IMG/VR virus record: IMGVR_UViG_3300025009_000227
Location: 1 to 40,558 of that record
Source: a virus
Strand: one strand, 5' to 3'
Length of the DNA: 40,558 nt
This document shows, in pieces, positions 3,099-40,558 of this stretch. Every line of letters starts with the position of its first letter. Within the stretch, counting starts at the first letter, position 1. Both the position numbers and the translations under genes were made by a program. A model generated the notes under the pieces. It did not search any database. It was given only the letters and a program-made list of their open reading frames with translations, and was not told the DNA's origin.

Positions 3099-4670
3099 TT
3101 ACCTATTATTATTTTCTTTGTCCTGAGAAATAATTGTATTATCTGCTGGGTCATCTGTTTCTGGTGCTCCACCTTTATCATCTGAATTTCCAGATTGATT
3201 CATGTTAGTAGGAGGTATCCAATTTGATTTAGATTTAACAAGATTTTCATATTCCAATGAGGCGTTGTAACAATCACTATCATTACCAATTTTTGACGTA
3301 ATAATATTAAGAGACCCTCCAATTGTAGTTAACTTATACTCATTTTCAATCTGCTCTTTTTGATTAAACCAAGTTGTTTTCCATATATTTAATCTAAAAG
3401 TATATTTCTTTCTTAAATTAACATTGCTAATACGATAGTTAAACCAACTTTGAATTTTATCAAGCATTGAGAATACAATAGATTGTATATATATTAAATT
3501 TTGTGTAATACCAACAGATGAATTTGTACTTGAACCACCAAGGAGTAAAGGGTTAGCACCTGCTTGCATATATGCCATTGATTTAGTAAATTCAGCTAAG
3601 TTCGTTTTTTCATTTTGAACACTTTTAAATGGAATTTCTTGTAATTTATACGGACACCCCACCACAGAAATGCTCTCTGGGAGTCCGTTGGCAACAACGT
3701 TTACCCATTCATGGACTCTTTCAGGTTCTATTAAAGGAATCCCAGTTTCTAGATCATGTGGAAACTCAATTCCAATCATTTTCACCTTATCATCCCTAGA
3801 ACTCTCAATCTCTTCATCAACTAAATCATTTAATAAAAATAACTCAGTAAACAATTGACTATATAAAGGCAAAAAGAAAGTATCATTATCTCCACCTAAT
3901 TTAATACAACATACTTTATCACTAGGTAAAGGTTGCCATTCTGGATATCTTAATCTATCAGAATTAGTTTTATATTTATCATATAATATTTTAAATTCAT
4001 CAGGATAAATACTCCAAGCAAATTCAGATAATTCATTATCTCTAGATAAATCTTCAAAATATTTGAAGTTAAATTCTACGGAAAATTGTCCATTTTTTAT
4101 CGAATATAATCTAACATATTTAATGGGCAAATCCCATAGATAAGGAAAATTACCATCATTTTTTTCAAACCCACAATAAGCACCATATCTAACTAAACTT
4201 TCTATAATTCTACGTCCAGTTTTCTTTATATCAATATTATCAATATATTTTCTAACAGTATTAAATTCATTATTAAAATTTTTTAGAAGTTTATTTATTA
4301 CTTCTTGAGATTCTTCTTCAGTCATTTCTTTTGAAGTTTGATTAGCAATTTCTTCTTTTAATTTTTGCATTGTATAAAAATCAGGTTGAAGATAATTATC
4401 TAATGTTGCCATGTTTGTAGTTAAATTTACTAAAACTTTATAAATACCTTCAGGTGCATATAAATTATCTGATAAATCAAGTATCTCATTTTGATATTTT
4501 TGTGGATTTTCTAGCCATAATTTTATTTTATCAATTGTTACATTTTTTAATTTTTTTTGTTTATTTTTAAATAAACCACCTATTCTTGAAAGGGAAAAGT
4601 TTTTAGCTGAATCCCATGATTTTTTTAATGAGAATAGGGTAGGGGAGAGGTTTTGATCTAATTCTGACAT
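3099..4670 (-). CDS. Phage portal protein
   Basis: This gene encodes 523 residues. Portals form the dodecameric ring at the capsid vertex through which terminase pumps DNA. The sequence has the expected alpha-rich build: a wing-like N-terminal part, then a central acidic segment (LVDEEIESSRDD, about residues 283-294), then an Ala/Gly-rich tunnel-loop-like stretch (YMQAGANPLLLGGSSTN), and a disordered Ser/Asn/Asp-rich C-tail with GNSDDKGGAPETDD. The length fits the family. It sits directly after the large terminase and before the protease-scaffold. An AAAGGAGG lies about 13 bases before the ATG, a long spacing. The call is confident from gene order plus overall pattern, with no single diagnostic residue. 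Confidence 0.82.
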   Translation of the reverse strand: MSELDQNLSPTLFSLKKSWDSAKNFSLSRIGGLFKNKQKKLKNVTIDKIKLWLENPQKYQNEILDLSDNLYAPEGIYKVLVNLTTNMATLDNYLQPDFYTMQKLKEEIANQTSKEMTEEESQEVINKLLKNFNNEFNTVRKYIDNIDIKKTGRRIIESLVRYGAYCGFEKNDGNFPYLWDLPIKYVRLYSIKNGQFSVEFNFKYFEDLSRDNELSEFAWSIYPDEFKILYDKYKTNSDRLRYPEWQPLPSDKVCCIKLGGDNDTFFLPLYSQLFTELFLLNDLVDEEIESSRDDKVKMIGIEFPHDLETGIPLIEPERVHEWVNVVANGLPESISVVGCPYKLQEIPFKSVQNEKTNLAEFTKSMAYMQAGANPLLLGGSSTNSSVGITQNLIYIQSIVFSMLDKIQSWFNYRISNVNLRKKYTFRLNIWKTTWFNQKEQIENEYKLTTIGGSLNIITSKIGNDSDCYNASLEYENLVKSKSNWIPPTNMNQSGNSDDKGGAPETDDPADNTIISQDKENNNR

Positions 4671-4732: not shown

Positions 4733-6545
4733 CTATCTTCTTGCTCTTGATGATTTATTTGCTATTGCAAAATATGATGAAGGGGAGATGTTGGTATTTT
4801 TTTTCTTTATTTTATTTTTCTTTTCTTGTAAATAAATCCAATATAAACCATACATTAATGCGGAAAATTTATCTTTTTGAATAGACCTTGAAACTCTATC
4901 AATTCTTGTTTCATTTCCTGCTTGTTTATAAGTAAGATTCATAATTTCTTCACATAAATTACCAGTTAAAACATATGGAATTTGAGCATTAGCTAATTCT
5001 TCACTATCTTTAATTTTATGTTTTAATTTTTTTTCTAAAGATTTTATACCTTCATATTCTGTTTTTAAAAGACCTACATCTAATTTATTAAATACTTGCA
5101 TAAAATGATTTATCATATCACTATTTTTAGTTTCTTTATTTTGTGCTTTTAATGCAAAAACCATAGATATACTATTATTTAATTTGTACTTATCATAATC
5201 AGGATCATTAACAACACTATATGGTGGATTGCCATCATTTAAATCAAGAACTAACTGATCCACAACAGAAACTCCAAGGCCATTCGCGTCAATTACTAAA
5301 ATTCTTGCTTTGAATTCTTTTACTTTTTGTTTTAAAAATTTTGCTTGTAATAAACTATGTTGCCCTTCCATAGAAAACAGATTTACAACTTCTTTAATAT
5401 AATCTCCGTTATCTTTAGGAGTCATTTTTATAACTACTAAACATGATAAAGCATTTTCATCACCTTCATTACGACTAACATCATATGCTAAACAATAATC
5501 AACTCTATCATCTCCACAATGTTCCCATTCAGCAATTCCAACTATTCTAGATTTTTGTAATTTATCATCAGCCACTAAAGAATCAGAAGAAGAACCTGTC
5601 CAAATAGATTGATACTCACGCATAAAATCCATAATACTATAGGTTGGTGATTCTCTTAATTCCTCAATAAAATCTATATCTAACTGACCATACATGCAAG
5701 GTAACTCATATGAATTGCCTAAACAAAATGCTGATTTACCATTAATCATATCTTGATAAACTTCAGACATTTTTTCATAAGAAAATTGCTGTTGAGTTCC
5801 TGCTGTTGTAATATATAATTCACATTTATGTATTTCTTCTGGATCAACACCACTACATGCAGCTATGCGGTCATTGGCCATAAGGGGTATTACGACTGCA
5901 TTGAGTATATTACCATCAAATTTTTTATCTGAAATTTCTTCAATTGCCCCACCGTACCTACGACCACCTCTCGTAGAATCACGCATTTGGACAACATCGT
6001 ATTTTGACCCATTGTAAAATATTAATTTAGTATAATCTTTATTTTCTACAAATGTTTTAACTTCTTTTTTTAAAAGAGGGTAATGTTCAAATATATCATT
6101 TATATTATCTGCTGTTATTTTTGCAGCTTGCTCTTTACCTACTGCACATGTAAAAAGTTTAGTTTTTTCAAACATAATACATTTTAAAATAAATGCTAAA
6201 TTTTGAAGATAACTTTTAGATGTTCCACGAGTAGCAGTTAAAAAAACTTTTCTATATCTCATCATAATTCTTAAATATACTCTTTGATAATAATATAATT
6301 GTATTTTAGAATCAGGAGTTGAAATAAAATCAAGAAATTTGTCAGGGATACCACCTAAAATAACTACATAATTCTCTCCATTGATCTTTGATATTTTCAA
6401 AATTTTTTATTTGTAGATTATTTATATTATTTGTTTCAAAATTTTGAGGATTAGAAAATGTATCACTATCTTTAATACTTCTGCTTTTTTTACTAAAATT
6501 ATTTTGAGATGTTATTATTATCATCTCCATCAACTTTAATATCAT
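4733..6545 (-). CDS. terL: Terminase large subunit, joined by a +1 frameshift
   Basis: This is the packaging ATPase and nuclease. The frame from 6400 encodes most of it: Walker A-like TATRGTSKS, a GGAIEE Walker B-like segment, and RNase H-like acidic motifs around AYDVSRNEGDENA and LVIDANGLG, ending with KDKFSALMYGLYWIY. Its apparent N-terminus (TTG at 6400, no Shine-Dalgarno, stop just upstream) is unlike the family. The overlapping frame ending at 6342 supplies the missing part, with ENIKDQWRELCSYFRWYP continuing as DKFLDFIS. Joining them by +1 at CCC-TGA (6347-6342) gives about 603 residues, a normal length. The start in the upstream frame is uncertain: ATGs lie at 6545, 6530 and 6524, all overlapping the end of the previous gene. 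Confidence 0.85.
6341..6356 (-). promoter_or_regulatory. prfB-like +1 ribosomal frameshift site in terL
   Basis: The minus strand reads AGG-TGG-TAT-CCC-TGA-C. Its parts are a Shine-Dalgarno-like AGGTGG (6356-6351), a three-base spacer TAT, the Pro codon CCC which can slip one base onto CCT, an in-frame TGA stop (6344-6342) and a following C, which makes TGA a weak terminator. The known bacterial release-factor-2 site has the same parts at the same spacing: AGG-GGG-TAT-CTT-TGA-C. CCC should be a rare codon in DNA this A+T-rich. Frameshifting here would restore a full-length terminase. Confidence 0.8.
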
Positions 6546-7473
6546 TAATTATTATTACATTATCTGTATCTATTTCATCTAAATCTAATTTAGGAGTATC
6601 AAAAGGAGGTAATATCATTTTCTCTGCTTTATTAAGTTTTAAAGTAAAATTTTCTATATGCATAATTGTTTTATCTACTATATCTTGATTAATACCTTTT
6701 ATTTTTCTATAATATTCCCAAGGTGGTATAAATCCATCTTTTTCAACCTCAGAATAAATAGTACAAAAATTTCTTATTCCACCTGTTTTATCCGCATCTG
6801 TTTTATCCATTGCACGAAACTTTGAATCTGCCATATATTTAGAAAATAAATCACCTAATTTTTTAGCTTCATCATAATTTCCTTCTTCTAATTCCTTATC
6901 CATTTTTAAAGAAATAATTGCAAGTTTTTTTAGATATATCATATCTTGAGTTGTTTCTATACTATTTGTTCTTTGCATATCATTATAAAATTGTTCTAAT
7001 TCATAATAATCTTCTGGATCATATTTATTTCCCCATTTTAAAATCATTTCACTAGTAACATCAAAATGGTTGTTACTAGTAATTATTTGATCTATATTTA
7101 ATTTCACAGGATTAATACTATCAGGTTTAAATTTACTATCTTTCCAAGTTCCTTTTTTAAATTCATTTAATTTTGAATTGGCAATTCTTATATATATACT
7201 CCAAGGATCTTCTTGATTTTTTTCTACCGCAGACCTCCAATATGAATAAATAAAAGGAATATCTAATAATTGAAGTATCTTATATACTGTTTCTATTTTA
7301 TTATAATCAAGCATAGACCTAACACAAACCTTACAGATATTTAATTTCCCATCTACTGATAATACTGAATTTGTATTATAGTATTGAGCCATTGCTAATT
7401 CTCTTTTACAATTATCACATATTTTTTTAGTTTGTAACTTTACTGTTGTAGATTCTTTCTTTTTTCTTGGCAT
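6499..7473 (-). CDS. Putative terminase small subunit with N-terminal zinc finger
   Basis: This gene encodes 324 residues. The N-terminus is basic (MPRKKKES) and carries two Cys pairs, C19-x2-C22 and C47-x2-C50, consistent with a treble-clef or ribbon zinc site for DNA binding. The rest is helical and charged, with an Asp/Asn-rich tail (VDGDDNNN). It lies immediately upstream of, and overlaps, the upstream frame of the large terminase, which is the normal place for the small subunit that recognises the packaging site. GGAG lies eight bases before the ATG. Sequence alone does not prove the function; a separate DNA-binding regulator is the main alternative. Confidence 0.55.
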   Translation of the reverse strand: MPRKKKESTTVKLQTKKICDNCKRELAMAQYYNTNSVLSVDGKLNICKVCVRSMLDYNKIETVYKILQLLDIPFIYSYWRSAVEKNQEDPWSIYIRIANSKLNEFKKGTWKDSKFKPDSINPVKLNIDQIITSNNHFDVTSEMILKWGNKYDPEDYYELEQFYNDMQRTNSIETTQDMIYLKKLAIISLKMDKELEEGNYDEAKKLGDLFSKYMADSKFRAMDKTDADKTGGIRNFCTIYSEVEKDGFIPPWEYYRKIKGINQDIVDKTIMHIENFTLKLNKAEKMILPPFDTPKLDLDEIDTDNVIIINDIKVDGDDNNNISK

Positions 7474-7489: not shown

Positions 7490-8470
7490 TTAACTAACTA
7501 TTTTTAAATCTTTTTCTGTTATTCTTCTTAGTTTCCCATATGTGTCATCATTAATAAATCCACCAATATTTATATTATAATGAGAATGATATTTTTCATC
7601 AGATTTAAACCATTCTAATGCCTTATTATATTCTTCTAATAAAACTTCATCAGAAGGTAAATAATCTCTAATTGTATTAATAAATACACCTTTCCAACCT
7701 CGTCTTTTTAAATATTGATATCTTCTTATTTCTTTATTTTTAAATTCCTCTTCTGTCATATTACCCATTTTCACACATAAATCATGACCTGATCCATTTA
7801 CTTCTATGTAAATTTTATCTTCAGGAAAACCAATATCTAAACTTGGTGTGTCATTAGAATAATTTAATTCACCACCAAATAATTGATGAATATATCTTTG
7901 TTGTCTTGAGGTTCTAACAGTGCTGTTTTTATAAAATGTTTCTGCCTTTTTAATTTTAACATCTTCAATTTGAGAAATATTATCTACTCCATACTTTTCT
8001 TTTACAATTTCTTTTGTTTTTTCAATAAAATATTTTGAACCAAAAATACTCTCAGAATTATATTTCTCTAAATTAGTTTGTTTCTGTTTTTTAATAAATT
8101 CAGGTTGATTAATATGATATTCAAAACCATAATTAACTAAATTGCATTCTGCTGTTTTCTTTGTTTGACATTTTCTATTGGAGCAACAATCTTTATGTAC
8201 TACAGAATTTAAATTATTTTTAATATAATCTCCTGCATTTTTCGGATAAGTACCTTTACATCCTTCTTCATTATAATCACATTTTACTAATACCTTAACT
8301 TCACTATAAGGAGGCAAATCTTCAACTTTAACTATTAAATTTTTACTATAATCAATAACTTTTCTACCATACTTATCTGTTTTGTATGGTATTTCATAAC
8401 ATTTTTCTTCATAATGAGATAATTTTTTAGAACCCTTTAATTTAACCTCTACCTCTTTTGTAATTAACAT
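7490..8470 (-). CDS. Vsr-like (EDxHD-type) homing endonuclease, putative
   Basis: This gene encodes 326 residues. The N-terminus (MLITKEVEVKLKGSKKLSHY) is a module typical of phage HNH/EDxHD endonucleases. Next comes a Cys-rich patch (CDYNEEGC, CCSNRKC) likely to bind zinc, then repeated K.TNLEKY and KEKYGVDNISQ helical motifs probably used for DNA contact. The C-terminal domain has LDIGFPEDKIYIEVNGSGHD and RRYQYLKRRGWKGVFINT, matching the core of Vsr/PD-(D/E)XK-related nucleases. It sits between the leader at 8497-8579 and the putative small terminase, an intergenic position common for free-standing homing endonucleases. The start is clear: AGGAGG, eight bases, ATG. A 36-residue relative of its N-terminus lies at 26407-26517. 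Confidence 0.7.
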   Translation of the reverse strand: MLITKEVEVKLKGSKKLSHYEEKCYEIPYKTDKYGRKVIDYSKNLIVKVEDLPPYSEVKVLVKCDYNEEGCKGTYPKNAGDYIKNNLNSVVHKDCCSNRKCQTKKTAECNLVNYGFEYHINQPEFIKKQKQTNLEKYNSESIFGSKYFIEKTKEIVKEKYGVDNISQIEDVKIKKAETFYKNSTVRTSRQQRYIHQLFGGELNYSNDTPSLDIGFPEDKIYIEVNGSGHDLCVKMGNMTEEEFKNKEIRRYQYLKRRGWKGVFINTIRDYLPSDEVLLEEYNKALEWFKSDEKYHSHYNINIGGFINDDTYGKLRRITEKDLKIVS

Positions 8471-13892: not shown

Positions 13893-14498
13893 TTAAATAA
13901 TCTCATCTAAATCAACATCTTCACCAATAATAAAATCTACAAATCCTTTATCTTTGGCCTCGGAAGAATACATATACCATTCCACACGATACTTTTTATC
14001 ATATTCCTGTGACGTTAACTTACTTCTTGATAATATATATTCTTTTATTTTCTTTTCTTGCTGTTCTTGGAATTTTGCAGCATCTCTAATCTTTGCCATT
14101 GAATTGTACATAAAATTAGAACCATCATGCATTAAATATGTAGAATGTTTTAAAGCATATCTTTTACATCCAGCAAGACCAATCAAAAATCCCATCGAAT
14201 ATTCGTAAGCAAGGTTAATTGTATAAACAGGAGTTTTACTATTCAATATTACATCAATTAATCCAAAACCATCTACTAAACTACCACCATTACTTACACA
14301 ATAAAGAAGTATAGGTTTACGCTCTGATATTTCTTTTCCTTTATCTTCTGTATTAAACCTAAGTATGTGATAAGTAATCTCAGTTAATATTGTTTCATCA
14401 ATATCAAAATCAATATATAGTTTTCTCTGTTTTAAATCTTCAATTTGAAATTTATCACCTAAATCATAATTTATAACTTGTTTAATTTGTTCAGTCAT
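13893..14498 (-). CDS. ClpP-family serine protease
   Basis: This gene encodes 201 residues from the ATG at 14498. An upstream GTG (14507) falls inside the GGTGTGAT ribosome-binding site, so I prefer the ATG. The ClpP/crotonase fold is plain: PILLYCVSNGGSLVDGFGLID resembles the ClpP oxyanion strand. The catalytic Ser lies in YEYSMG (Ser104 counted from the GTG) and the catalytic His in LMHDGS (His127). The C-terminal part is charged and helical. The family degrades proteins in the cytoplasm, often with a Clp ATPase; phage members may instead process virion proteins. Here a separate protease-scaffold gene exists, so a role in processing a middle/late protein or a host target is my inference. 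Confidence 0.82.
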   Translation of the reverse strand: MTEQIKQVINYDLGDKFQIEDLKQRKLYIDFDIDETILTEITYHILRFNTEDKGKEISERKPILLYCVSNGGSLVDGFGLIDVILNSKTPVYTINLAYEYSMGFLIGLAGCKRYALKHSTYLMHDGSNFMYNSMAKIRDAAKFQEQQEKKIKEYILSRSKLTSQEYDKKYRVEWYMYSSEAKDKGFVDFIIGEDVDLDEII

Positions 14499-14549
14499 GG
14501 TAATCACACCATTTTAACCTTTCAATTAAAAATTTTATTTTTTATTAAT

Positions 14550-15929: not shown

Positions 15930-15994
15930 ATAAATAGGGTAGAGGGTGTTGAAATAATATTAATCTAATATCTACCCATAATCGACCTATTTAT
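15930..15994 (-). other. Leader stem-loop ahead of the metallophosphoesterase gene
   Basis: GGGTAGA (15937-15943 on the plus strand) pairs with TCTACCC (15971-15977). An outer ATAAATA (15930-15936) pairs with TATTTAT (15988-15994). The second arm touches the stop of the beta-CASP gene. There is no U-tract, so an RNA-processing or translational element is more likely than a terminator. Confidence 0.35.
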
Positions 15995-17424
15995 AAATTG
16001 CATACAGTACCTTTTGTAGTACAAATAATTCTCGTAGTTTTACTCATCTTGCTTATTTCTTCTTCTAATAATTCTTTCATCCTCAATTTACTTTTCTCTT
16101 CAGCATGGACTAAATAAACTTTATCAGCACTAATTCCCTTTAAATAATTTAATAATTCAATCTGTCCAATATGAGAAGAAAAACTATTCAACACAGTTAT
16201 ACTGCATTTATTCTTATAACTTTTACCTTCAATATTTATAAATTTTTGTCCATTTTTAATTTTAGAAGCAATACTACCTTCAGGCGAAAAACCTACTGTT
16301 ATAATATGAGATTTAATGTCAGATATTAATTCTTTTAAATAATTCACCGATCTTCCTTTTAATAAAAATCCGCTACTACTCAATACGATCTTAGGAATTT
16401 TATCACTAACAGAAACTTTACTCTCATTATAATCCTTAATAAATCTAACATTATCCCAATCACAAACTTTATCAAATAATTCTTTATGTTCGCCTTGTAG
16501 TGCATCTTTATATACTTTTGTAATTTCCCATATTAAAGGTGAATCAACAATTATAGGAATTTTAAAATCTTTATTTTCTCCATATAACATATACAAATCA
16601 GTTAATATTTGTTGTGCTCTTGATAAAGAAAATACAGGAATTAAAATTCTTCCTTTATCCATTAAGCATACTTGATTAACAACTGTTTTAATTTTTTCTA
16701 AATCTTTATTCCTACTAACATTAACATTCTTTTCATCTGCACCATAAGTACATTCACTAATTACTATATTTGCCTTACTACAATATTCTGTATCTTCAAC
16801 ATAGTAATTTTTGTTTTGTGAACCTTTTAAATCAGAAGTATAAAGTATTTTCTCAATATGTCCTGTGCTTGTTTTTAAAAATAATTCAAGTTGACAAGCA
16901 CCTATTATATGAGAATTATGTAAAAATCTAAAACTTGTATTATCATCTAATTGATGTATAATTCCATAATCATAAGTATGTGTTAAATTCAATGTGTTAT
17001 AAACATCATCTTCATTGTAAAATGGTTCAAATTTAACCCCACGTTTTTTTGATATGTATTCTGCATCTTTCCTAATTATATTTGCTGAATCTTTTAACAT
17101 TGGTTTCATCAATTTAGATGTTATATCTGTAGTTATTATTTTACCATTAAAACCATACTTTATTAATTTAGGCAAAAGACCCATATGATCTATATGAGAA
17201 TGGTTAATGAATACATAATCTAAATTCTTAGTTTTAAAAGGGAAGTGTTTAGCATTATCTTTATAATCTTTTATAGAGTTTGAACTTTGTATCATTCCAC
17301 ATTCTAAGAGTATGTTTTTATATTCTGTTTCTATTAAAATCATAGAACCTGTTACATTTACACTGTTGTTACCTATAAATGAAATTTTAACTTTTGTTTT
17401 TTTCTTTTTACCCATATGATTCAC
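15991..17424 (-). CDS. Beta-CASP metallo-beta-lactamase ribonuclease
   Basis: This gene encodes up to 477 residues; GTG at 17424 or ATG at 17415 may start it. It contains the full set of MBL motifs: HSHIDH (75-80), His172 in NSHIIGACQ, and Asp198 in TSDLKG. The beta-CASP motifs are also present: acidic A motif ISECTYG (Glu224), B motif FSSHIGQIEL (His418) and C motif VHAEE (His440). This arrangement is that of RNase J/CPSF-73-type enzymes that cut or trim RNA, and of related DNA enzymes. All metal ligands are present, so it should be active. The family is common in cells but unusual in a phage. It lies in a unit with a metallophosphoesterase and a ClpP-like protease. Confidence 0.88.
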   Translation of the reverse strand: MNHMGKKKKTKVKISFIGNNSVNVTGSMILIETEYKNILLECGMIQSSNSIKDYKDNAKHFPFKTKNLDYVFINHSHIDHMGLLPKLIKYGFNGKIITTDITSKLMKPMLKDSANIIRKDAEYISKKRGVKFEPFYNEDDVYNTLNLTHTYDYGIIHQLDDNTSFRFLHNSHIIGACQLELFLKTSTGHIEKILYTSDLKGSQNKNYYVEDTEYCSKANIVISECTYGADEKNVNVSRNKDLEKIKTVVNQVCLMDKGRILIPVFSLSRAQQILTDLYMLYGENKDFKIPIIVDSPLIWEITKVYKDALQGEHKELFDKVCDWDNVRFIKDYNESKVSVSDKIPKIVLSSSGFLLKGRSVNYLKELISDIKSHIITVGFSPEGSIASKIKNGQKFINIEGKSYKNKCSITVLNSFSSHIGQIELLNYLKGISADKVYLVHAEEKSKLRMKELLEEEISKMSKTTRIICTTKGTVCNL

Positions 17425-32043: not shown

Positions 32044-34260
32044 TTATTTATTTTTAAAATAATTGTATCTTGTTATTAAATAATCCTTAAGTTTATCATT
32101 TAATTCAATCTCTGCTGCACACCTGGTTATGGCCACATATAAAACATAAACTTCGTTTTGAAACTTTTTAATATCAAAATTATCTTTATTATCTTTGTCT
32201 ATATATTCTTTTTTAAATACATCATTGATGTTAAAATAATCATCACTTATATATACAGGAATTGTATATGTCTGTCCTTTCGCACGATGACAGGTAGAAA
32301 ATATGACATTTGCCATACTTTTATTTTTAACTACATTATTTTTTATATTTTCAATAATAAGTGGTATCCTACTATTATACCTTTCTATCATTTTATCAAT
32401 TGCTAAAAGTTCTAAGTCAATAATTTTTTTTGCATATTCTAGCATATTATTATAATCTTTAAATTTATTAAATAATGGATTTTTTACTTTATGTCCTTTA
32501 TGGAAATAAAATCCATCCAAAATATTATTAAATTGATAAGATTTGAAATTTCCTTCAAAGAAAATGTTAATATTTGGATTTATATCTATTGCATCTACAA
32601 CTTCTCCAAAAATATTAGCATTTGTTCTACATAAGCATACATATGGTTTACTTTTGTCAATTTTTTCTACTATTTTTTGCTTAGTATTAAATCCTTTCAT
32701 ATTAATATCTACTTTACACATATCTTTAATTATTATATTAGCAATATTAGCTATATTTTGTCCTACCCTAAATGAAGTAGTTAACTGATACTCTTTCCCT
32801 TCAAACAAAGGCATTATGTTAGTAGCACCTCTGAAGTCGTATAAGTTTTGGTATTGATCCCCTACGATTACTATATTAGGAACATTTGATGATTTAAGAA
32901 TATCTAATACTAACAAACTAGAATCTTGACAATTATGTACAACTATACCTACATTATTATTTTCTCTTACAGTTATAAAATTATGATTATCTTTTACTTC
33001 AATATCATAAACATCTTCATTATGTATTGTTTTAATAGATTTAACATAATTATATGTGTATTGATTAATTCCATCTAATATTAACAAGTCTTTTCCTGGA
33101 ATTAAATTGTCTGCTCTAACATATCCTCTTTTAGTTAATATCTTATGATTTTCTGTGCATTGTAAATTATTAATATTAGTTTTTATCTCTAATAATTGTC
33201 TATTCTCTGACTTTTTTGCCCATGTAATATCTTTGTACTCAAAAGTATCAGAATGAATATTAAAACTTAATATTTTTGGTAAAATACTTCCTTCTACATA
33301 CAAATCATACAATTGCTTAATTGATATATTACCTTGATCTGTTTTTACTAACTGTGATTGAGGTAAGCACTCATCAAGCATAATAATATCATATTTATTA
33401 TCAAGAGGAGTTTTTGAAAGATGAAACATTTTTAAGTATGTGTCATGTGTAATTTTATAATTATTATCATATTGCAATTGTAAATCCCAAAGTTTGCGAC
33501 AATATTTAATTATTAATTCTCTTTCTTCTGTTGTATTACCATTTTTATCTTTAAACAAATTAATATCTGAAAAATCTAAAACATCAGATAAAGTATATTG
33601 TCTCATCATTTCATGAATTTTAACTGCAATTTCCATATCTTTATTCCACTTTAGTTTTAAATCTTTTATTACATCTACAACTCCGTAATTTAATGTTAAT
33701 TTATCCTTGTAAAATTTTCCACATCTCTGATATGCTAATGAATGTATTGTGCGGATCTCTGTATTTCTAATATTTCTAAATATATGGTCACATTCATCCT
33801 TCATTGCTTTATTGTAAACTAGATATAATATTTTTTTATACTCTCTTTCTTTTGCATAATAAAAAAGGGTGCTGGTCTTGGCAGATCCACTTCTTGCAGC
33901 AATTTTAATTTTTACTTCCTCAGCAAATATAATATCTTTCTGTTCCTGTGTCAAATAATATCCTTCCTCAGACATATAATCTGATAATTCAATTTTAACA
34001 TCATCAAATGTATTATTATAGTATTCTCTATTTAGAATATCAATTTCATCTTCACCAAATTCCTTATCCCCATCCTTAACTATTAACTTTAATTTCAATT
34101 CGCACTCATCACCTCTACCACTAGGATGAGAATAAAATTGCCTACTAACACCAAAATTCCTGATTAATTCTTCTTTACAAACTGGACATATGTATGTATC
34201 ATTCTTTGTAGATTCTATAATATCTACTAACTTATTGTGTTGATTTAATGCTTTTTTCAT
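32044..34260 (-). CDS. UvrD/PcrA-like superfamily 1 helicase with an intein
   Basis: The precursor encodes 738 residues. Near the N-terminus is a zinc-binding patch (YICPVCKEEL, SHPSGRGDEC). The helicase begins with TQEQKDIIFAEE and Walker A ARSGSAKTST (residues 122-131). Walker B/motif II is split: IIMLDE precedes and CQDSS follows a 146-residue intein (298-443). Later motifs are visible: VGDQYQNLYDFRGA (III), LTTSFRVGQNIANIA (IV) and FSTCHRAKGQTY (V), with a YVAITRC (VI) segment. After splicing about 592 residues remain. Such helicases unwind DNA 3' to 5' in replication or recombination. The exact role here is unknown. Confidence 0.88.
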   Translation of the reverse strand: MKKALNQHNKLVDIIESTKNDTYICPVCKEELIRNFGVSRQFYSHPSGRGDECELKLKLIVKDGDKEFGEDEIDILNREYYNNTFDDVKIELSDYMSEEGYYLTQEQKDIIFAEEVKIKIAARSGSAKTSTLFYYAKEREYKKILYLVYNKAMKDECDHIFRNIRNTEIRTIHSLAYQRCGKFYKDKLTLNYGVVDVIKDLKLKWNKDMEIAVKIHEMMRQYTLSDVLDFSDINLFKDKNGNTTEERELIIKYCRKLWDLQLQYDNNYKITHDTYLKMFHLSKTPLDNKYDIIMLDECLPQSQLVKTDQGNISIKQLYDLYVEGSILPKILSFNIHSDTFEYKDITWAKKSENRQLLEIKTNINNLQCTENHKILTKRGYVRADNLIPGKDLLILDGINQYTYNYVKSIKTIHNEDVYDIEVKDNHNFITVRENNNVGIVVHNCQDSSLLVLDILKSSNVPNIVIVGDQYQNLYDFRGATNIMPLFEGKEYQLTTSFRVGQNIANIANIIIKDMCKVDINMKGFNTKQKIVEKIDKSKPYVCLCRTNANIFGEVVDAIDINPNINIFFEGNFKSYQFNNILDGFYFHKGHKVKNPLFNKFKDYNNMLEYAKKIIDLELLAIDKMIERYNSRIPLIIENIKNNVVKNKSMANVIFSTCHRAKGQTYTIPVYISDDYFNINDVFKKEYIDKDNKDNFDIKKFQNEVYVLYVAITRCAAEIELNDKLKDYLITRYNYFKNK
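32932..33369 (-). mobile_element. Mini-intein in helicase motif II
   Basis: 146 residues. It starts CLPQSQLVKTDQG (block A, Cys1), then LQCTENHKILTKRGYV (block B, with TxxH), VYDIEVKDNHNFITV (block F) and ends GIVVHN before Cys+1 (block G). There is no endonuclease domain, so it cannot spread alone. The DE|CQD position puts it in the ATPase site, so the helicase is inactive until splicing. Confidence 0.9.
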
Positions 34261-36753: not shown

Positions 36754-37602
36754 CTATAATCCAATCCTCAAATTATTAATTTTCTTCTTAATATTTTCTT
36801 TTCTTGCATGAGTATACATGGAAGTGACTTGTAAGCTCCCGTGGCCTAGTTGATCTTGCAATTCTGGCAATGTTAATATATCTTGTTCTATTGCACTAGT
36901 GGCAAACGAATGTCTAAGCTGATGCACTCCAACTTTATCTTCATTTTTACCATACAATCCAAAAATATAATTAATACTATCTTTATGCAACTTTTTGCTT
37001 CTTTCAGATAAAAACAAATATTCAGAATCAAAATATTTATGCTTCATTCTATCTATCAAATAATCTTTAATAACCTGAATTGCTACATCATTAAGATAAA
37101 CTGTTCTTTCTTTATTACCTTTACCTAATACAACCAACTCCCCATTCTCTAAATTTAAACTTTTTAATTTTAAATTAGTTATTTCTTCTCTGCGTATGCC
37201 AGTATTAGCAATCAAATAAATTATAGCAATATTACGTGATTTATATATATTAGGTTTATCACTTACATTATTAAGAAAATTAGAAACTTGTTTTTCTGTT
37301 ACATTAGTTGGATTACCTTTTGATTGTATTTTAATAAAATCTGCTTTAATTATAAAAATTGAATCAATCAATCCTTTACCTAATAAATACTCATTAAATG
37401 ATTTTAAAGCTGATAATTTTAAATTTATTGTTTTCGCTGATAGATGAGATAATTTTGATTTATATAATTGAATATTATTACGATTAATAGTATTAAAAAT
37501 ATTAAAATAATGAGTTACATCAGAAGTATAATTTCTTATTGTATTATTAGATTTTGCCTGATTAATTAAGTGTTGCTTAAAATATTCAATTTGTGATTTC
37601 AT
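36754..37602 (-). CDS. Tyrosine recombinase (integrase/XerC-D-like)
   Basis: This gene encodes 282 residues. The SAM-like N-terminal DNA-binding domain occupies about residues 1-95 and the catalytic domain follows: Arg137 in NTGIRREE, Lys in VVLGKGNKER, H227-Q-L-R230, His254 in LGHGS and nucleophile Tyr263 in SMYTHA. All active-site residues are present. The size fits Xer-type or small phage/plasmid recombinases, which integrate elements or resolve multimers. GGAGG lies eight bases before the ATG and a promoter lies at 37634-37662. No attachment site could be recognised. Beside an FtsK-like gene, dimer resolution of a circular phage-plasmid is as plausible as integration. Confidence 0.92.
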   Translation of the reverse strand: MKSQIEYFKQHLINQAKSNNTIRNYTSDVTHYFNIFNTINRNNIQLYKSKLSHLSAKTINLKLSALKSFNEYLLGKGLIDSIFIIKADFIKIQSKGNPTNVTEKQVSNFLNNVSDKPNIYKSRNIAIIYLIANTGIRREEITNLKLKSLNLENGELVVLGKGNKERTVYLNDVAIQVIKDYLIDRMKHKYFDSEYLFLSERSKKLHKDSINYIFGLYGKNEDKVGVHQLRHSFATSAIEQDILTLPELQDQLGHGSLQVTSMYTHARKENIKKKINNLRIGL

Positions 37603-37877: not shown

Positions 37878-38189
37878 ATGAGAATATCATTCAAAATAAA
37901 CAGAGAATATGATACAGAATTAATTAAGCAATTAGAGAAATTTAAGTGTAATAATAATTTATCACAATTTATTAGAAAAATATTAAGAGATAATTTAGTT
38001 AATAGGAAAAATGAAATTGAAGATGTGTTTGCTGAAGATACTAACACTAACAATATTAATAATACTAATAATGATACACCTGCATCCAATACGGATAATG
38101 TTGAAGTTAGGAAGATTAATAGAAAGACAGAAATTAATAATGGCAACATATCAAAATCTATCAAATGGGATAACCCAAATTTAAAATAG
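37878..38189 (+). CDS. Ribbon-helix-helix DNA-binding protein
   Basis: This gene encodes 103 residues. The N-terminus fits the ribbon-helix-helix pattern: strand RISFKINREY, helix DTELIKQLEKFK, turn, helix NLSQFIRKILRDNL. The C-terminal half is disordered and Asn/Thr/Asp-rich. Proteins of this build (ParG, omega, ParR, MetJ types) bind tandem operators as dimers. The five 12-bp iterons just upstream are the natural target. AAGGAGG precedes the ATG. It opens the plus-strand block; autoregulation and plasmid partition or transfer control are likely roles. Confidence 0.72.
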   Translation: MRISFKINREYDTELIKQLEKFKCNNNLSQFIRKILRDNLVNRKNEIEDVFAEDTNTNNINNTNNDTPASNTDNVEVRKINRKTEINNGNISKSIKWDNPNLK

Positions 38190-38198
38190 GAGGATAAT

Positions 38199-38471
38199 AT
38201 GAAAACCTATTTGTTATGGTATAATTCTACTACTGAAGGTGTTACATTAGATATTACTGATTTAATTGATGAATTAATAAAAGTTAAATTTTTACCAAGA
38301 AAATTTGTAGAAGAATTTATTAAAGAAGAATTCCATGCAGATGAAATATTTTATATGAATAATATTGGAAGTTTTAGCGAAATGAATAAACAATTTAAAA
38401 ATGTTAAGGAGATTATTAATGTTGATAAGAAATATGCACAGGAATTTATTAATAGTAAATTGGAGGTATGA
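38199..38471 (+). CDS. Unknown small protein
   Basis: This gene encodes 90 residues starting MKTYLLWYNSTTEGVTLDIT. A short strand is followed by charged helices (LIDELIKVKFLPRKFVEEFI, KKYAQEFINSKL). There is no membrane segment. AGGAGG lies six bases before the ATG. The stop overlaps the GGAGG of the next gene, so the two are probably coupled. No family recognised. Confidence 0.6.
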   Translation: MKTYLLWYNSTTEGVTLDITDLIDELIKVKFLPRKFVEEFIKEEFHADEIFYMNNIGSFSEMNKQFKNVKEIINVDKKYAQEFINSKLEV

Positions 38472-38475
38472 ATTA

Positions 38476-38763
38476 ATGAAAAAATATATTATTATCTTAA
38501 TTTGTTTATTATGCCCCACCCCTTGCTATGCGATGACCATTGGTGAATTAATGAAGAAAACTGTTGCTCCTGGAAGTCCTGGATTTGTTATATTAGAAAT
38601 AATAGGAATAGCAATTGCATCATGGGTAGGAGAAATGATATGTAATATATTAGGGAAACAAAATTTAGCAGGATTTATTAAAATACTTACTGCATTTGCA
38701 GGAACATTAATAGTATTACTAACAGGTACAAATATAATAAATAAAATGTTAGCATTATTTTAG
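38476..38763 (+). CDS. Small membrane protein with signal peptide (VirB2/TrbC- or SpoIIIAC-like)
   Basis: I place the start at ATG 38476, nine bases after GGAGG, not at an earlier in-frame ATG. The 95 residues begin with a typical signal peptide (MKKYIIILICLLCPTPCYA) and continue with two hydrophobic helices, FVILEIIGIAIASWVG and GFIKILTAFAGTLIVLLTG, separated by a short polar loop (NILGKQNL). A cleaved signal plus two membrane helices is the build of VirB2/TrbC pilins of conjugation systems. The helix-loop-helix text also resembles SpoIIIAC/AD. I cannot decide between them. Confidence 0.62.
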   Translation: MKKYIIILICLLCPTPCYAMTIGELMKKTVAPGSPGFVILEIIGIAIASWVGEMICNILGKQNLAGFIKILTAFAGTLIVLLTGTNIINKMLALF

Positions 38764-38774
38764 GAGGAAATATT

Positions 38775-39158
38775 ATGTTATTTATTGTACCTATATTAAT
38801 GTTTGTAATATTATGTTTATGTTTACCGCAGATAATGTTACAAACATTGATAGGATTTTTTGGATATATTATATGTAAGGCATTAAATAATAATAATTTA
38901 GCTAAAATGGTAATTATAATAACTATATTTGCTTGTTTGAATGTTATTATGGAAAAAGCAATGCCAATAATAGAAGAAGTACAAGGAAAGCAAGAATATG
39001 TAGGCGATAAAATAGATAAATATGAAAAATATAAAGATTATTATTATCCTGAGCATGATAAAGAAGATATACAGAAACCTATTGATAGAAAGATTGATGA
39101 ATACACACCTAATAATTGGTTTATAAGAATGTTAACAGAATACCCTAGAACTAGATAA
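38775..39158 (+). CDS. Membrane protein, unknown
   Basis: This gene encodes 127 residues. Two or three hydrophobic segments are visible (MLFIVPILMFVILCLCLPQI, TLIGFFGYIICKAL, MVIIITIFACLNVIM), followed by a charged cytoplasmic or extracellular tail (DKIDKYEKYKDYYYPEHDKE). AGGAGG lies a few bases before the ATG. It lies between the small signal-peptide membrane protein and the next membrane-anchored gene, so it may form part of an envelope complex. Confidence 0.6.
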   Translation: MLFIVPILMFVILCLCLPQIMLQTLIGFFGYIICKALNNNNLAKMVIIITIFACLNVIMEKAMPIIEEVQGKQEYVGDKIDKYEKYKDYYYPEHDKEDIQKPIDRKIDEYTPNNWFIRMLTEYPRTR

Positions 39159-39172
39159 TATGAGGTGAAATT

Positions 39173-39859
39173 ATGCAAACTGTAATAGTTAATAAATTTA
39201 TTATAGGTATGATGGCATTATTTGTAATGTGTGGTATGAATAACTTAATGTTTAAAAGTGGTAATATTGATGCAAGAATATATAGACATGATAATAATCA
39301 ATTTTTTGGTGAATTGATTATTAAAGATAAGAAATTACCTTTGATTGTAAATGTAGATGTAGAAAATGAAGTAACTGAAAAAACTTACAATGAAAATAAA
39401 AGTTATAACGAAAATAAGGAATATACAGAGTATAAAGAGATTAATGATAAAAAAGAAATAAATGAAAATAAACAATATAATGAGCAAAAAGATCATAATA
39501 TTAACAATAATTCTAATAAAAAAGAGGAAATTATTAATAAAAATGAAGATTATATTAACAAAAAAGAAGAAAAATTTAATGAAAATATTAGAATTACAGA
39601 TGATAAAACACCAGGAAGTATAGATATTGTTATTAAAAATGGTGACATTGAAGTTAATATTAATAGAGATATAGGAAGCAGAGAAATGAGCGAAATAGAT
39701 AAAGAGATTTGTAGGAAAAGTATTGATGCTGTAGTTGATTTTATTAATAGTATTAAAGGAAATAATAAGAGTAATATTAAAAATAGTGTTGTTGAAAAGG
39801 TTAAAGGATTTAAAGATTATATAAGTAAACCAAAAGATGGAAGGTGGTTTAAATGGTAG
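39173..39859 (+). CDS. Membrane-anchored, charged-repeat protein
   Basis: This gene encodes 228 residues. The N-terminus has one hydrophobic segment (FIIGMMALFVMCGMNNLMF), then a beta-like stretch, then a long hydrophilic zone with near-repeats such as YNENKSYNENKEYTEYKE, and a C-terminal helical segment (EICRKSIDAVVDFINSIKG). The GAGGTGAAATT ribosome-binding site is normal. The stop overlaps the start of the FtsK-like gene. It looks like an anchored scaffold or spacer protein of the same assembly. No family recognised. Confidence 0.6.
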   Translation: MQTVIVNKFIIGMMALFVMCGMNNLMFKSGNIDARIYRHDNNQFFGELIIKDKKLPLIVNVDVENEVTEKTYNENKSYNENKEYTEYKEINDKKEINENKQYNEQKDHNINNNSNKKEEIINKNEDYINKKEEKFNENIRITDDKTPGSIDIVIKNGDIEVNINRDIGSREMSEIDKEICRKSIDAVVDFINSIKGNNKSNIKNSVVEKVKGFKDYISKPKDGRWFKW

Positions 39860-40558
39860 ATAAAAATAAGATAAAAGATAAATTTACAAAGTATTTACAA
39901 CAGTTATCATACAATCCTGTTAAAGTTCAGAAACCAGAAAATTTTAAAACTATAATTAAAAAATTAATTAGAAATAGAAAAGGTAGAGAAATAGAAGCAG
40001 AAATAGAAGATGTATTCATACAAATTGGTTGTCATAATTCTAGGGGTGAATATCCTTATTATATAGCAACAAATAAAAAGAAGGATAATATTATTCAAGT
40101 AATGTTTAAATTGCCATATGGATTAAATTATAAATCTATTATTGATAAGACTAAATATTTTGCTGATGCTATGACAGCACAAGTTAATATAGAAAATAGA
40201 AGAGGATTATTAATGGTTGAAGTTATTAAAGGAATTATACCCGAAAAATATAGATATAACTTTAATTATATTGAACATATGGATAAGTGTGTACCTATAC
40301 CCATTGGTGTTAGTGTTAATGGTATGCCAATAATTGTTGATTTAGCTATAGTCCCACATATTATATTAGGAGGTGTAACAAGATCAGGTAAGAGTATTTT
40401 GCTTACAGGGATTTCTGATTCCTTAATGCAAAATCATAATGTTAAATTATTTATTATTGATTTGGCAATGACTGATTTTGTGCATTTAAAGGATTATTGT
40501 ATATTTGGATATAATTTAGATAGTGCAGAAATTATATTAGAATATTTAATGCAAGAAT
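39853..40558 (+). CDS. FtsK/TcpA-like DNA translocase, N-terminal part (cut by window edge)
   Basis: This gene gives 235 residues to the edge. Walker A GGVTRSGKS lies at residues 173-181, and a hydrophobic VKLFIIDLAM segment resembles Walker B. MPIIVDLAIVPHIILGG before Walker A is the usual FtsK/TraB/TcpA pattern. The N-terminal 150 residues (KIKDKFTKYLQQLSYNPVK and on) have no clear membrane segment, unlike chromosomal FtsK. The ATG overlaps the previous stop, with AAGGTGG just upstream. Such ATPases pump DNA through a membrane pore for conjugation, segregation or forespore transfer. The neighbours favour a plasmid transfer or maintenance role. Confidence 0.78.
   Translation, partial: MVDKNKIKDKFTKYLQQLSYNPVKVQKPENFKTIIKKLIRNRKGREIEAEIEDVFIQIGCHNSRGEYPYYIATNKKKDNIIQVMFKLPYGLNYKSIIDKTKYFADAMTAQVNIENRRGLLMVEVIKGIIPEKYRYNFNYIEHMDKCVPIPIGVSVNGMPIIVDLAIVPHIILGGVTRSGKSILLTGISDSLMQNHNVKLFIIDLAMTDFVHLKDYCIFGYNLDSAEIILEYLMQE

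Follow-up and report, generated by a model that had tools for sequence, protein, structure and literature searches.

A prfB-like +1 frameshift site probably used in the large terminase gene of a metagenomic phage

A terminase gene divided between two frames

How might a phage produce its large terminase subunit when the gene for this protein (terL) is interrupted early by a stop codon and most of the enzyme is encoded in another frame? This question is raised by the window, the whole 40,558-nucleotide stretch of viral DNA that was analyzed. An original prediction held that the two parts of terL are joined by +1 frameshifting at a site resembling that of prfB, the gene for release factor 2 (RF2). 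The features of the locus, given with their coordinates in the window, are as follows.

3099..4670, minus strand: portal protein gene downstream of terL (phrog_2739)
4733..6343, minus strand: main part of terL in frame +1, with ATPase and nuclease domains, 536 codons plus stop
6341..6356, minus strand: prfB-like +1 frameshift site AGG TGG TAT CCC TGA C, read from the sequence
6342..6344, minus strand: in-frame TGA stop, read from the sequence, with C next (6341)
6344..6347, minus strand: slippery CCC_U, where the P-site tRNA-Pro can re-pair from CCC to CCU (sequence and literature)
6345..6545, minus strand: N-terminal part of terL in frame 0, 67 codons when counted from the first ATG, which is at 6545 (putative start)
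6351..6356, minus strand: Shine-Dalgarno (SD)-like stimulator AGGTGG, spaced 3 nt from the slippery codon; pairing with the anti-SD predicted at -9.1 kcal/mol
6499..7473, minus strand: small-terminase (terS) position directly 5' of terL (phrog_3314; 'putative small terminase' in phage PJN02)
6513..6515, minus strand: ATA in place of the ATG at which terL starts in relatives, with the SD-like GGAG upstream kept
7490..8470, minus strand: free-standing homing-endonuclease-like gene (phrog_12131, DUF7487) directly 5' of terS-terL

On the minus strand, the site and its surroundings read GAA TTA TGT AGT TAT TTT AGG TGG TAT CCC TGA CAA, the part from TTT to CAA occupying 6359-6339, with the codons AGG (6356-6354), TGG (6353-6351), TAT (6350-6348) and CCC (6347-6345) preceding the TGA stop (6344-6342) and its C (6341). 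Frame 0 is open from 6545 to 6345 and ends in the residues ENIKDQWRELCSYFRWYP, and the +1 frame starts with GAC at 6343 as DKFLDFIS... and remains open down to the stop at 4733. The split of terL is thus confirmed as real, with the anatomy originally described. Past the TGA, frame 0 reads QIS* and then meets further stops, and it is therefore closed after three codons, which excludes stop readthrough or reassignment of TGA. A -1 shift is excluded as well, since that frame provides 24 codons before stops appear. Because both of these frames close so soon after the site, the terminase can come from the +1 frame only, as had been predicted, and full-length TerL can probably be made only through a +1 slip. 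In the lineage of the window, the usual terL ATG has been lost to ATA while the strong SD-like GGAG is still there; in-frame ATG codons exist upstream.

The identification of the split gene as a large terminase, also part of the original prediction, is upheld by profile, structure and fold matches. The +1 part matches phrog_2 (terminase large subunit) and phrog_15503, and the score for the latter rises from 135.8 to 162.9 bits once the N-terminal part is added, a gain of 27 bits from a match that extends into that part. A tblastn search with the +1 part returned 68 phage records headed by Brevibacillus phage Sundance and Lactococcus 949-like phages, the top records being annotated as YonF or terminase, and by this homology the protein is of the SPbeta YonF/Lactococcus-949 type. 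In the PDB, the family profile matches T4 gp17 (3EZK). An AlphaFold model of the joined protein (pLDDT 78, pTM 0.53) has the predicted fold of an ATPase plus a nuclease, with T4 gp17 (E 1.7e-15) and HK97 terminase (E 2.3e-12) as the best Foldseek matches; TM-scores are low for the whole chain (0.34) and better for domain matches. P67-D68, where the two parts join, falls between helices near the N-terminus, in a stretch that is confidently modelled. Also, the Walker A sequence TRGTSK, the EE pair and the nuclease Asp positions are kept, and the protein differs at only 1 of the 74 alignment columns that are invariant in the other rows.

A prfB-like signal and its odds of arising by chance

The prfB signal comprises an SD-like run 3 nt before the slippery codon, a TGA stop and then C (PMC12421855). 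By analogy, ribosomes in frame 0 of terL would arrive at CCC-UGA-C, where AGGUGG would pair with the 16S anti-Shine-Dalgarno sequence and slow termination at UGAC would lead tRNA-Pro to slip from CCC to CCU. Reading would then restart at GAC to yield full-length TerL, and ribosomes that terminate would leave a 67-amino-acid fragment that is probably useless. The anticipated stimulator at prfB spacing is present, and its predicted anti-SD pairing of -9.1 kcal/mol compares with -10.7 for E. coli prfB and with -3.5 (L016) and -2.9 (L017) in in-frame relatives that lack the AGG. Of all codon positions in the phage, only 0.9% offer pairing as strong as this. Furthermore, CCC has been reported among the next most slippery codons at a prfB-type site (PMC10885494). 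No downstream RNA structure that might serve as a stimulator is predicted (z of -0.14 in the window and -0.46 in L020), and no tRNA or RNA families were found in the window. The prfB sites in hosts of distant relatives are AGGGGGTCTCTTTGAC (Paenibacillaceae) and AGGTGATTCACTTTGAC (Gallicola MAG), which indicates that the prfB-type mechanism should be available in hosts like these. Judged from such sequence evidence, expression of terL by a prfB-type +1 ribosomal frameshift is very likely.

Care must be taken in weighing the resemblance, because the protein motif RWYPD fixes TGG and most of TAT-CC, so that only the Arg, Pro and Asp codons are informative. In this phage, AGG makes up 14% of Arg codons, CCC 3% of Pro codons and GAC 8% of Asp codons, and the joint probability of AGG, TAT, CCC and GAC at R-W-Y-P-D is 3e-4 under the codon usage of the phage. 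If the ancestor carried CCT and an insertion made the CCC, then AGG plus GAC would still be unlikely, at about 0.5% with CCT and TAT. The canonical prfB 16-mer, with up to 3 mismatches allowed, has one match in the window, which is the site (0.12 expected). When every base was inserted in silico at every position of the terL genes of 11 relatives, a signal (SD pairing of -9 kcal/mol or better, a slippery codon and TGAC) was created by 21 of 72,588 insertions (0.03%), nearly all at this place in the in-frame relative L026; a random gene-killing insertion would therefore seldom look like the site. Among viral contigs, there are 74 prfB-like 16-mer sites, of which only those in terL join frames with homology on both sides, and none of the others constitutes a convincing case in another viral gene. 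The motif first noted thus stands in its layout, which exceeds chance, but less so in TGG-TAT-CC, which the protein largely fixes.

A stronger proposal, compatible with a corrective shift, is that the site serves as a dedicated switch, responsive to RF2, by which DNA packaging is delayed or tuned. The TGA, the C at +4 and the SD-like element at prfB spacing form an RF2-responsive layout, and few stop codons in this phage are TGA (2/33), but low G+C alone could account for that rarity and the signal is absent from all other relatives. Such a switch seems unlikely, and a corrective frameshift that perhaps lowers TerL output incidentally is favored over it.

Recurrence of the site and selection on the gene

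The site is also present in L014/L034, in L015/L038 and in the diverged L020/L036. Two other metagenome contigs are near-identical to the window and share it (100% identity over 11,419 nt and 99.8% over 8,864 nt). L020/L036 has 84% nucleotide and 87% amino acid identity to the window; L036, a separate virus, carries the same 16-mer amid 83.3% nucleotide identity over 3,759 nt, and the terL of L020 is open in the same two frames. A degenerate RWYP-TGA search of 2.9 million viral contigs yielded no further terL cases, returning the three known contigs and two unrelated matches. The RxYPD motif that spans the junction is conserved in distant homologs, and all other recovered terL genes with an N-terminus (from viral contigs, genomes and phage records) read it in one frame. 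In the in-frame relative L026, the aligned position is AGGTGGTATCCTGAC, one base short of AGGTGGTATCCCTGAC, and the motif is coded as AGG.TGG.TAT.CCT.GAC. A few relatives (L116, L113 and L115) have an interrupted terL, but at other places. Thus, the signal is confined to two lineages rather than being broadly conserved among homologs. The conservation that had been proposed as a check is seen in these two related lineages, and the other relatives are uninterrupted at this place; uninterrupted relatives with no conserved site, named at the outset as evidence that would refute the proposal, are what the other relatives provide and what L020/L036 does not.

Purifying selection on both halves of terL is shown by the comparison with L020. 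Upstream of the site dS is 0.37 and dN/dS 0.04, downstream of it dS is 0.69 and dN/dS 0.13 with no further stop, and third positions hold 6 of 9 changes upstream and 157 of 254 downstream. The low dN/dS, the third-position bias and the near-complete retention of invariant columns indicate that the two frames encode one conserved protein whose halves are maintained together.

These data bear on the possibility that terL is decaying after a recent frameshift, the lineage being defective or satellite-like and obtaining its TerL from another phage or from a different gene copy. The window has lost its ATG start as well as its frame, dN/dS is somewhat higher in pairs that include it (0.13-0.19) than among its relatives (0.04-0.12), and a second terL could lie elsewhere in the genome because the window is a fragment. 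Nonetheless, decay is highly unlikely given that the same single break, and no other, is kept in two diverged viruses, that 536 codons remain open at a dN/dS of 0.13 with catalytic and invariant residues kept, and that so few random insertions create the signal. Initiation within the +1 frame, for example at the TTG at 6400, which opens that frame, or at a later ATG, would give an N-truncated TerL without any frameshift, and L020 has a TTG and an ATG in the same stretch. This explanation has a very slim chance of being correct, since no clear SD precedes the TTG (by eye), about 20 residues of the product would be foreign, conservation of the frame-0 part extends up to the junction (dN/dS 0.04) and the junction-spanning motif persists in distant homologs. 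Finally, an extra C introduced by sequencing or assembly can be practically dismissed, for although the site is one base apart from in-frame L026, the same base occurs in three contigs and in a virus that is 16% different.

The points that count against a prfB-type shift are that it is found in two lineages only, which are not sisters on a tree that nonetheless does not reject a single clade, that the slippery codon is CCC rather than the CTT of prfB, and that the window shows the raised dN/dS and the lost ATG already described. Overall, a +1 frameshift of prfB architecture in terL appears real, selected and probably used in the two known lineages, and a corrective shift that has been retained because it is functional is the most likely interpretation.

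Possible origins and the neighboring endonuclease gene

The site likely originated when a single base was inserted into a terL gene with RWYPD coded as AGG.TGG.TAT.CCT.GAC. This context would have made the inserted base largely self-correcting, and the insertion might then have been kept and shared between lineages. When the window is compared site by site with L016 and L020, it matches L020 between about -139 and +128 relative to the frameshift site (22 sites versus 6) and then changes abruptly, matching L016 from +140 to +371 (29 versus 2), a switch that points to recombination. In a tree from 441 flanking columns, the window and L020 are not sisters, and a single clade is not rejected (AU p = 0.116). 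These patterns fit a segment around the site that is common to the window and L020, with recombination beyond it; the alternative would be two gains.

Both frameshift viruses have a homing-endonuclease-like gene immediately 5' of terS-terL (L020:968-1804). The gene is absent from all 17 in-frame relatives with enough upstream sequence and present in one more, L066, giving an association with the frameshift (Fisher p 0.016) that was compared after the pattern had been seen and in which related contigs are non-independent counts. Homologs with 70-97% amino acid identity occupy the same position beside very different terS-terL genes in otherwise unrelated phages (L211:3501-4478, L212:3501-4694 and L208:375-1352), and the gene is therefore mobile; the window and L211 have 95% nucleotide identity over 1.28 kb at the endonuclease, and their terS proteins are 28% identical. 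We conjecture that the frameshift hitchhiked with the endonuclease gene or protects against it, as has been proposed for T4 gene 60/mobE. In its fuller form, the insertion would confer resistance to the endonuclease, the prfB-like context would keep terL working and both would spread together. Such a cassette is decidedly unlikely but, if true, would parallel T4 gene 60 and its neighboring endonuclease gene on the scale of one base.

More generally, selfish elements seem to favor terL as a target. In a related phage, terL is interrupted by a group I intron (L116:3093-3330; Rfam RF00028, 66.9 bits), and long insertions are found in terL genes that belong to the same family as that of the window or adjoin the same endonuclease gene (L113:1198-2501, L115:1321-2501, L211 around 5800-7100 and L208:3123-3435), the one in L211 being intein-like and located at Walker A. 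In L030 (1801-1804), an in-frame TAA replaces a conserved Tyr codon of a terL that is otherwise open (59% identical). Elsewhere in the window, a UvrD-like helicase gene (32044-34260, minus strand) carries a short intein-like HINT domain (CLPQS...VVHN) at its DE-CQ motif, without an obvious endonuclease. Genes for a ClpP-like protease (13893-14507) and a beta-CASP metallo-RNase (15991-17424) are also encoded on the minus strand. Opposite-strand genes at 37878-40558 (plus strand) include, at the contig end, one for an FtsK/SpoIIIE-type ATPase, with small membrane-like proteins encoded ahead of it. They resemble a conjugation- or plasmid-type module and stand next to a tyrosine integrase (36754-37602), and on these grounds the virus may be a phage-plasmid or the carrier of an integrated element.

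Comparison with known recoding systems

If correct, this interpretation would place a prfB-type signal outside prfB and would make an essential phage motor that is produced only by recoding. When RWYPD is coded in a certain way, only one base separates it from a near-optimal frameshift site, and an otherwise lethal insertion that can be self-corrected and retained suggests a route by which such signals arise, for which in-frame relatives such as L026 offer before-and-after sequences. Annotation pipelines will call genes split in this manner broken.

The site is like that of prfB in its in-frame TGA followed by C, in its +1 direction and location near the 5' end of the gene, and in a purine SD-like run that ends 3 nt before the slippery codon, with 13 of 16 bases identical to AGGGGGTATCTTTGAC. 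It differs in having CCC where prfB has a conserved CTT, in having AGGTGG where prfB has AGGGGG and in its restriction to two lineages. The gene is a phage terminase, so there can be no autoregulation. Apart from its frames, the terminase itself is like the SPbeta YonF-type enzymes of Sundance, 949, phiL47 and SPR, with homology over the whole length and an identical terS-terL-portal order, whereas terL is in one frame in all of these phages.

Shifts at CCC_UGA are documented for tsh of Listeria phages PSA, A118 and A500 and for E. coli pheL (PMC5009743), which bears out the mention, in the original prediction, of +1 shifts on proline codons in PSA. The Listeria examples likewise involve a gene of a low-G+C phage and a proline CCC codon next to UGA, at which the shift predicted for the window would also be +1. 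There, the shift provides a second, extended tail protein, whereas in the window the short product would have 67 amino acids and nearly the whole enzyme lies past the site. It had also been stated that no terminase case was known. No prfB-type frameshift in terL was found in the literature, but recoding has been suggested for two terminases, with a putative -1 frameshift in terL of vB_MoxS-R1 (PMC9030533) and bypassing in Streptomyces phage Hau3 (PMC5009743). Both resemble the window in having a large terminase spread over split frames and recoding inferred from sequence, and both differ in direction or mechanism, with no prfB-like signal described. A further parallel is T4 gene 60, in which a recoding (bypass) insertion is accompanied by an adjacent free-standing homing endonuclease gene (PMC5009743). 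In both systems, the recoding insertion resides in an essential phage gene beside a gene of this kind, but T4 gene 60 has 50 nt that are bypassed, whereas the window has one base and, probably, a ribosomal slip.
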